From positions 1-54,823 of the forward strand of contig QWPB01000160.1 of assembly GCA_003671275.1 (NCBI GenBank): a stretch of 54,823 bases of DNA, written 5' to 3'. The position numbers and the translations under genes are program-made. A model generated the notes under the pieces. That model saw nothing but the letters and a program-made list of their open reading frames with translations, had not been told where the DNA came from and did not search any database. This document shows, in pieces, positions 107-54,805 of this stretch. This DNA comes from Planctomycetota bacterium. Its GTDB lineage: Bacteria > Planctomycetota > Planctomycetia > Planctomycetales > Planctomycetaceae. Within the stretch, counting starts at the first letter, position 1. Every line of letters begins with the position of its first letter.

Positions 107-200
107 CAGCCTGTTAAAAAACGCCGTGGGATCGGCTTTCAGCCTGTCCCTTCAGAATGTCGACAGGCTGGAAGCCGATCCCATGTTTTTCAACGGACTG
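107..200. repeat. Intergenic nested inverted repeat (MITE/REP-like), copy 1
   Basis: Outer arms CAGCCTGTTAAAAAAC (107-122) and GTTTTTCAACGGACTG (185-200) are imperfect inverted repeats. Inside, 127-148 pairs with 162-183 over 22 positions with a single G-T mismatch, leaving a 13-nt loop. The outer right arm ends one base before the stop codon of the minus-strand regulator (201-203). The outer-arm sequence TTTTTCAACGGACTG recurs at 13241-13255, which points to a dispersed family. No transposase is nearby. Confidence 0.6.
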
Positions 201-53235: not shown

Positions 53236-53556
53236 AAGAGACACCGTCCGGAGCCCGCCGCTTTGCCGGGGCACGTAAACGCGCGCTCCGGCAATGCGGT
53301 ATGTTTGTTGCGCAGATCGATGGCGACGGCTCAACGGTTGCTGGCGATCAAGGTGTGTTCGGCGATGGAATTGAAAGCATTTGAAGCCTGTTGAAAGATT
53401 TTGTTGTTTTGAAAATCGCTCTCAGATTCCCGCGATTCACCGGATCTGAACGCCCTGAATGGACGTATAATCAAGAGGCGGGAGCGACGATTCGAAGCTG
53501 CCCAGCGGGGGCAGCCCCCATCATCGCACCACATGTCCCTGAAATTGGGGAAGACC
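53236..53556. other. 321-base intergenic region
   Basis: It contains a 7-bp inverted repeat (CCGGAGC near 53249, GCTCCGG near 53286) after the TPR gene, an AT-rich stretch near 53380-53415 and a TATAAT at 53466-53471, 86 bases before the HPF-like start. No good -35 is placed for that -10. No gene seen. Confidence 0.45.
53466..53471 (+). promoter_or_regulatory. Candidate -10 element for the HPF-like gene
   Basis: A perfect TATAAT preceded by GACG. The nearest -35-like hexamer is poor, so a regulated or extended promoter is possible. Confidence 0.35.
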
Positions 53557-53880
53557 ATGAGGATGACGATTTGTGGCGTTAAGGTGTCTTTGACCGATGA
53601 GGTTCGTTCGCTGGTCGAGCGGCGTTTTCAATACGCCCTGGCCCGGTTTGAGCACCAGCTGGATTCCGTTCGCGTGACGCTGCGTGACCTGAATGGTCCG
53701 CGTCAGGGGATTGACCACGAGTGTCGGGTCATGGCCCATCTGAGAAACGGAAGCCAAGTGATCGTTCGAGAGGTGCAGACCAACACTCCGGCTGCGGCAT
53801 CGCTGGCGGCAGACCGGCTGGTCTACAGCATTGGCCGAGCGATCGACAAACGCCGCCGGTTCGAACACACCGTGCCCTAG
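53557..53880 (+). CDS. Ribosome hibernation factor HPF/RaiA-like protein
   Basis: A 107-aa short-form protein that resembles HPF/YfiA: MTICGVKVSLTDEVRSLVERRF fits the first strand and helix, DSVRVTLRDLNGPRQGIDHECRVMAH the central strands, and a final helix ADRLVYSIGRAIDKRRR is basic. Relatives bind the 30S decoding centre and silence ribosomes in stationary phase. It lacks the C-terminal dimerisation domain of long HPF. ATG 53557 fits the family start; ATG 53533 in frame is possible. It precedes the DinB-like gene, to which it may read through. Confidence 0.75.
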   Translation: MRMTICGVKVSLTDEVRSLVERRFQYALARFEHQLDSVRVTLRDLNGPRQGIDHECRVMAHLRNGSQVIVREVQTNTPAAASLAADRLVYSIGRAIDKRRRFEHTVP

Positions 53881-53928
53881 TTACGGGTGTTCGCAACTGT
53901 TGATTGTGTGGGAAGTCGTTCCGTGGTT

Positions 53929-53995
53929 CCTCCATCAAGAGTGGTGATCCGTTATAATGAGAGCATCGCGTGGATCAATACACTCTTGATGGAGG
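53929..53995 (+). promoter_or_regulatory. Perfect 15-bp inverted repeat around a promoter, hiding a ribosome site
   Basis: CCTCCATCAAGAGTG (53929-53943) is exactly complementary to CACTCTTGATGGAGG (53981-53995). Between the arms is TATAAT (53953-53958), a likely -10. The right arm includes GGAGG, the Shine-Dalgarno of the gene at 54005. RNA that begins upstream can fold and hide the site; RNA started at this promoter lacks the left arm and leaves it free. Regulation is inferred. Confidence 0.6.
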
Positions 53996-54004
53996 TCGGT
54001 GGTT

Positions 54005-54496
54005 ATGGATGCTCGAGGAGCCATTCGCTGCGGGTTGGAAATGGCTGAATTCATCAGCTTGGGGTATCTCGAAGACCTGTCCGAATCCGATCTGTTTCAT
54101 CGCCCGGCCAGTGGTGCAAATCACATCAACTGGCAGGTCGGGCATCTGATCGTGTCGGAACACGACATCATCGAGGGCTGTCTGCCGGGTTCATCGCCCG
54201 CCCTGCCTCCGGGGTTCGCGGAACGCTATGGAAAACTCACTTCCAGTAGCGACGACCGTTCTCAGTTCTGTAGCAAGAAGGAACTCCTTGTCGCCTATCG
54301 AACTCAGCGAGTCGCCACCCTCGCGGCGCTCGATAAGCTGAGTGATGCTGAACTCGACACAGTCTCGCCCGAACCAATCGGCAGCTATGCCCCCACGTGG
54401 GGGGCCGCGATCTCCATGCAAGGCAGCCATTGGCTGATGCATGCTGGTCAATGGGCGGTGATCCGTCGCCAGCTGGGACGTGCTCCTCTGTTCTAG
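54005..54496 (+). CDS. DinB-family protein
   Basis: A 163-aa four-helix protein of the DinB/YfiT-like superfamily. Metal-ligand histidines are placed as expected: NHINWQVGHLIVSEHD (His near the first helix) and SMQGSHWLMHAGQWAVIRRQLG, where HxxxHxGQ marks the family. Members include metal-dependent thiol-S-transferases; the substrate here is unknown. ATG 54005 is preferred to GTG 53999 because GGAGGT lies eight bases upstream. Its ribosome site is part of a long inverted repeat. Confidence 0.85.
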   Translation: MDARGAIRCGLEMAEFISLGYLEDLSESDLFHRPASGANHINWQVGHLIVSEHDIIEGCLPGSSPALPPGFAERYGKLTSSSDDRSQFCSKKELLVAYRTQRVATLAALDKLSDAELDTVSPEPIGSYAPTWGAAISMQGSHWLMHAGQWAVIRRQLGRAPLF

Positions 54497-54594: not shown

Positions 54595-54731
54595 GGCTGC
54601 CACCCAACGCCGTCGACCGAAACTGGTGAACGGAGACGTGACACCTTTGCCTTTTCTCTCGATATCGTCGAAATCACAAGAAACGCAGGGCATGCCGACA
54701 ATTAAGAAAGAACGTGATCGATGGAGTCGAG

Positions 54732-54805
54732 TGCGCCCGGGTGGATTCGAACCACCGACCGACGGATTAGAAATCCGTTGCTCTATCCAGCTGAGCTACG
54801 GGCAC
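54732..54805 (-). tRNA. tRNA-Arg(TCT)
   Basis: Read on the minus strand, a 74-nt cloverleaf: acceptor GTGCCCG pairs with CGGGCGC (one G-T pair), D-arm GCTC..GAGC, anticodon stem ACGGA/TCCGT with loop TTTCTAA giving anticodon TCT (54769-54771), and T-arm GGTGG-TTCGAAT-CCACC. The discriminator is A (54732). CCA is not encoded. It decodes AGA and probably AGG. Confidence 0.93.

Follow-up and report, generated by a model that had tools for sequence, protein, structure and literature searches.

Known read-through blocks and the planctomycete locus

In the insertion elements IS10 and IS50, according to what Davis, Simons and Kleckner reportedly described in 1985, an inverted repeat spans the promoter and the ribosome site, and RNA arriving from outside is not translated. 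In gene e of bacteriophage T4, early RNAs that read through from upstream are folded and yield ~100-fold less lysozyme, while the late promoters lie within the structure, just upstream of the ribosome site, and give rise to RNA that is devoid of the 5' strand and is translated (PMC3014915). In long transcripts of T4 soc, 49 and I-TevI, too, a hairpin masks the ribosome site; a sequence-only reading of the DNA analysed here, which had credited the design to insertion elements, was correct for IS10 but too narrow in treating it as their speciality, since T4 e and these three genes employ it too (PMC3014915). Structures carried by mobile elements may also be left upstream of unrelated genes, as in the mobile attenuators, which are families of intrinsic terminators (PMC2965389, a paper that also cites Davis et al. 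1985).

We examined a candidate for such an arrangement in a planctomycete contig of 54,823 nucleotides (the window, meaning the whole stretch of DNA that was analysed). The features of the locus are as follows.

53533 to 53880, plus strand: gene for a short HPF-like protein (S30AE / sigma-54 modulation; Pfam PF02482, E 1e-7), an open reading frame with stop codon TAG at 53878-53880
53920 to 53928, plus strand: left copy of a 9-bp direct repeat, TCCGTGGTT, abutting the palindrome and 8/9 identical to 53996-54004
53929 to 53943, plus strand: left arm, CCTCCATCAAGAGTG, from the repeat search
53945 to 53951, plus strand: left side of the inner stem, TGATCCG, from RNA folding
53953 to 53958, plus strand: TATAAT, a possible -10 element lacking a -35 element, with a predicted start near 53965
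53971 to 53977, plus strand: right side of the inner stem, TGGATCA, from RNA folding
53981 to 53995, plus strand: right arm, CACTCTTGATGGAGG, from the repeat search, holding the Shine-Dalgarno (SD) sequence GGAGG at 53991-53995
53996 to 54004, plus strand: right copy of the 9-bp direct repeat, TCGGTGGTT, abutting the palindrome
54005 to 54496, plus strand: DinB_2 superfamily gene (Pfam PF12867, E 8e-14), with its ATG at 54005

The sequence-only reading had described a perfect 15-bp inverted repeat around a TATAAT, with the ribosome-binding site of a DinB-like gene in its right arm and an HPF-like gene upstream. Each of these points was borne out. The arms are complementary at 15/15 positions with a spacing of 37 nt, and the right arm ends in GGAGG, 9 nt from an ATG that agrees with the start at 45/46 orthologous loci; both gene identities are those given by Pfam. 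The hairpin is in fact longer than had been claimed, as seven further pairs on the inner side of the 15-bp arms (53945-53951 with 53971-53977) bring it to 22. The resulting near-palindrome measures 67 bp and lies between the two genes. An assembly artefact seems an unlikely source of the repeat, whose centre is non-palindromic and which is separated from the end of the contig by >800 bp. Scanned against Rfam, the region and the whole window gave only a tRNA above its threshold. A tRNA-Arg(TCT) gene occupies 54731-54805 of the window on the minus strand, where the contig ends; it lies past the DinB-like gene and is transcribed towards it.

The locus resembles IS10 and IS50 in having an inverted repeat across a TATAAT and a ribosome site, and differs from them in possessing no transposase (the flanking genes are hpf-like and DinB_2) and no other copy of the repeat, and in that its gene is DinB-like. 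As in T4 gene e, any long read-through RNA is predicted to have its ribosome site buried in a hairpin; unlike those of the planctomycete locus, the T4 promoters and RNA ends have been mapped and similar leaders are found in related phages, and the planctomycete gene is cellular. As with mobile attenuators, a structured and possibly element-borne sequence immediately precedes a cellular gene to which it is unrelated, although the planctomycete palindrome is single-copy and carries no T-tract.

The repeat is rare in its genome

No perfect repeat of at least 15 bp arose in 60 simulated first-order Markov versions of the window. For genome-wide comparisons, ~1.2 Mb (1.23 Mb) of the same genome was sampled in stretches. 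Among the perfect repeats listed in this sample, 82 reached at least 12 bp and 18 at least 15 bp; most of the 18 are either tight hairpins resembling terminators or belong to multi-copy extragenic families. Among 883 sampled genes, no repeat overlapping a start region is longer than the 15-bp palindrome before the DinB_2 gene; the next-longest are 14, 12, 12 and 12 bp, each spanning only 28-36 bp. A second paired arm was not found anywhere in the genome, in which the palindrome is single-copy. The palindrome is a true and unusual sequence feature.

Read-through RNA is predicted to hide the ribosome site

The RNA of the palindrome folds with a computed energy of -35.5 kcal/mol (z -5.8 against dinucleotide shuffles). 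The cost of opening the region from -20 to +15, together with the probability that the SD is unpaired, was computed for many RNA 5' ends. For 5' ends from 53780 to 53929, opening was calculated to cost 27-30 kcal/mol with the SD 0.2-2% unpaired. From 53963 on, the computed opening cost is halved and the SD is 19-45% unpaired; an RNA beginning at 53965, ~7 bases past the TATAAT, gives 14.2 kcal/mol and 22%. The computed folding thus agrees with the earlier proposal that RNA entering from hpf hides the ribosome site and that a shorter RNA is freed (27-30 against 14 kcal/mol), and the SD of the long RNA is predicted to be paired (at most 2% unpaired), as is characteristic of the T4 gene e type.

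By the same calculation, opening costs for 45 orthologous leaders range from 3.2 to 19.9 kcal/mol. The median for the 883 genes of this genome is 15.8, and the DinB_2 locus ranks only 33rd by opening cost, so starts with strong structure are not unusual in the genome. Furthermore, GGAGG stands near the start in only 21/621 upstream regions, which implies that this organism may depend less on the SD and that translation may not be governed mainly by its pairing.

Read-through is possible since no terminator-like site separates the two genes in a terminator scan. If it occurs, the RNA would come from the HPF-like gene at 53533 to 53880 and, on entering the palindrome, would fold into the 22-pair hairpin; provided that folding outpaces ribosomes in the cell, the SD would be hidden and the DinB-like protein poorly made. 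We place the probability of this inhibition in cis at about 0.45. An RNA whose 5' end lies past ~53944, whether begun at the TATAAT or produced by cleavage in the loop, would escape the hairpin. The full switch between two transcripts, which needs such a shorter RNA to exist, is considerably less probable than the inhibition itself. Were the inhibition true, a cellular gene would be using the read-through block of T4 and the insertion elements, in a phylum whose leader control is little known, and the locus would exemplify how a gene can be insulated from a new neighbour through its translation.

The TATAAT between the arms

The earlier proposal of an internal promoter holds insofar as a TATAAT does lie between the arms; beyond these six letters it does not. 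The best match to a -35 element for TATAAT 53953-53958 is 2/6, which we count as none, no extended -10 (TGn) accompanies the motif, and a promoter scan of the region found no sigma-70-like site. The genome sample contains few copies of TATAAT (24), and five of these lie in sense orientation within 150 nt upstream of predicted genes, two of the five probably corresponding to the hpf / DinB-like gene pair. With this pair left out, 621 upstream regions contain two sense and three antisense copies, which is no enrichment. A second TATAAT is located 61 nt before the hpf ATG. On its sequence context, an internal promoter at the TATAAT is possible, not supported.

On the minus strand, a promoter-like pair, TTGATC-16-TATAAC, is present at 53951-53977 of the window, inside the palindrome; no obvious gene lies on that strand for it to drive.

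Repeat and gene order in relatives

Orthologues of the DinB gene were collected from 59 relatives and from a genome-contig database (46 loci, in other species, two of them of the same genus). At none of the 46 loci, those of the two congeners among them, does an inverted repeat of at least 9 bp overlap the ribosome site, and none has an hpf-like gene within the upstream DNA examined (the congener contigs are short, with upstream sequence present in both). Conversely, no DinB gene was found near other hpf loci, and no relative contains a homologous intergenic region. The exact arm was not encountered elsewhere in 170 family genomes by single-arm search, nor the exact two-arm pattern in the genome-contig database, and whole-element DNA searches of the 59 relatives and of plasmids recovered only the locus and chance-level matches. 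By sequence comparison, the hpf-dinB neighbourhood and the repeat are both restricted to this species among the genomes compared.

Relatives that keep the gene but lose the complementarity were what the sequence-only reading had named as counting against its proposal, and this is the situation at 46/46 loci. Because these loci are without hpf upstream too, they bear on conservation and not on function in this species. Structure that is kept or compensated in relatives, a supporting though not strictly defining trait of the T4 gene e type, was seen at 0/46 loci, where gene order is not shared either. The hairpin is real and lineage-specific, is probably recent, and may damp translation of read-through RNA. 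Any use as a switch by the cells would be putative, and we see no evidence of selection on any part of it. Phage T4 and insertion elements already provide examples of this kind of control, of which the planctomycete locus is one putative, unconserved instance.

Origin of the palindrome

The palindrome might instead be a small inserted element or its remnant (MITE-like, its terminal repeats being 15 bp long and its target duplication 9 bp) or the product of a template switch, with no selected role, in which case the SD and the TATAAT inside it would be fortuitous or have been taken over later. We judge this unlikely, yet it survives best among the alternatives. It is favoured by the direct repeats TCCGTGGTT and TCGGTGGTT, which abut the palindrome and are 8/9 identical. 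A flank match this good (lengths 4-12) arose at 186/400000 random positions (0.0465%), and this is the best flanking repeat among the 82 palindromes of the genome sample; even so, the chance that one of 82 palindromes would reach such a score is ~4%, which is not remote. The absence of the palindrome from every relative also fits an insertion, as does the occurrence in this genome of several further families of extragenic hairpins, multi-copy and of comparable size. But the palindrome is single-copy, neither the genome nor 170 family genomes containing another paired arm, and it shows no similarity to the local hairpin families and no related ends.

In size, terminal repeats and possible target duplication the palindrome is like MITE and REP-like palindromes; it differs from them in being single-copy, with no partner transposase or related ends found. 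Of the features that define a MITE, terminal inverted repeats are present (15/15), several copies or a related autonomous element are not, and the target duplication is represented by flanks that are 8/9 identical with no empty site for comparison. Also against insertion, the sequence through the left arm aligns weakly, with the appropriate spacing, to the region 3' of hpf in two congeners (a borderline match, equalled by 103 and 130 of 3000 shuffles, ~3-4%); on this collinear similarity the left arm would be old. We regard the direct repeats as suggestive only of arrival as a small insertion, and template-switch copying of one arm as another possible origin.

That the 67-bp element jumped in between two unrelated genes carrying its -10 element, ribosome-binding site and shielding hairpin together, as a one-step mobile insulator, is highly improbable; if true, the cellular gene downstream would have been shielded from transcription coming from its neighbour while acquiring a start of its own.

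Other explanations of the hairpin

Rather than inhibiting translation, the hairpin could form the 3' end structure of the hpf mRNA, as a terminator or exonuclease barrier whose overlap with the next SD is due to chance. It begins 48 nt after the hpf stop, and two congeners have a long hairpin and T-tract at about the same distance past hpf. The congener hairpin is, however, of different sequence, with similarity that is only borderline. Furthermore, the GC-rich stem followed by a T-run that marks an intrinsic terminator is not seen at the planctomycete locus, where a T-tract after the stem is absent on both strands and the terminator scan places no site. We consider this explanation improbable, and more so than an origin by insertion or template switch. 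In the congeners (L050 and L051), the nested hairpin downstream of the hpf-like gene has CCCCTTCCGG / CCGGAAGGGG arms and a T-tract, and is probably a terminator.

It is very doubtful that the two arms serve as operators in the DNA, bound by a regulator that spans ~5 helical turns (52 bp between their centres) on either side of a promoter: their spacing and placement around the TATAAT would suit this, but the arms themselves are not palindromic, the genome has no other paired site, its single matches are close to the level of the reversed-pattern control, and no exact arm is found in 170 relatives.

Other hairpin families in the genome

When compared as a candidate member with the hairpin families of this genome, the 67-bp palindrome showed no homology to them. 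One multi-copy extragenic family has the form GTGGGATAGGCTTCCNGCCTGTC ... GACAGGCNGGAAGCCTATCCCAC with a loop near 17 and 14 arm matches in 1.23 Mb. Two more palindromic repeat families, ACGGCCTTTCCAGGCCGT... and AGACAGGAATGTCTG..., are ~45-60 bp long and lie mostly outside predicted genes. Their members are located as follows.

Family GTGGGATAGGCTTCCNGCCTGTC ... GACAGGCNGGAAGCCTATCCCAC: L136:18357-18421, L149:8709-8761, L167:5058-5106, L138:293-339 and window 127-183
Families ACGGCCTTTCCAGGCCGT... and AGACAGGAATGTCTG...: L134:19893-19953, L177:1101-1155, L167:3533-3592; L132:883-931, L141:12485-12530
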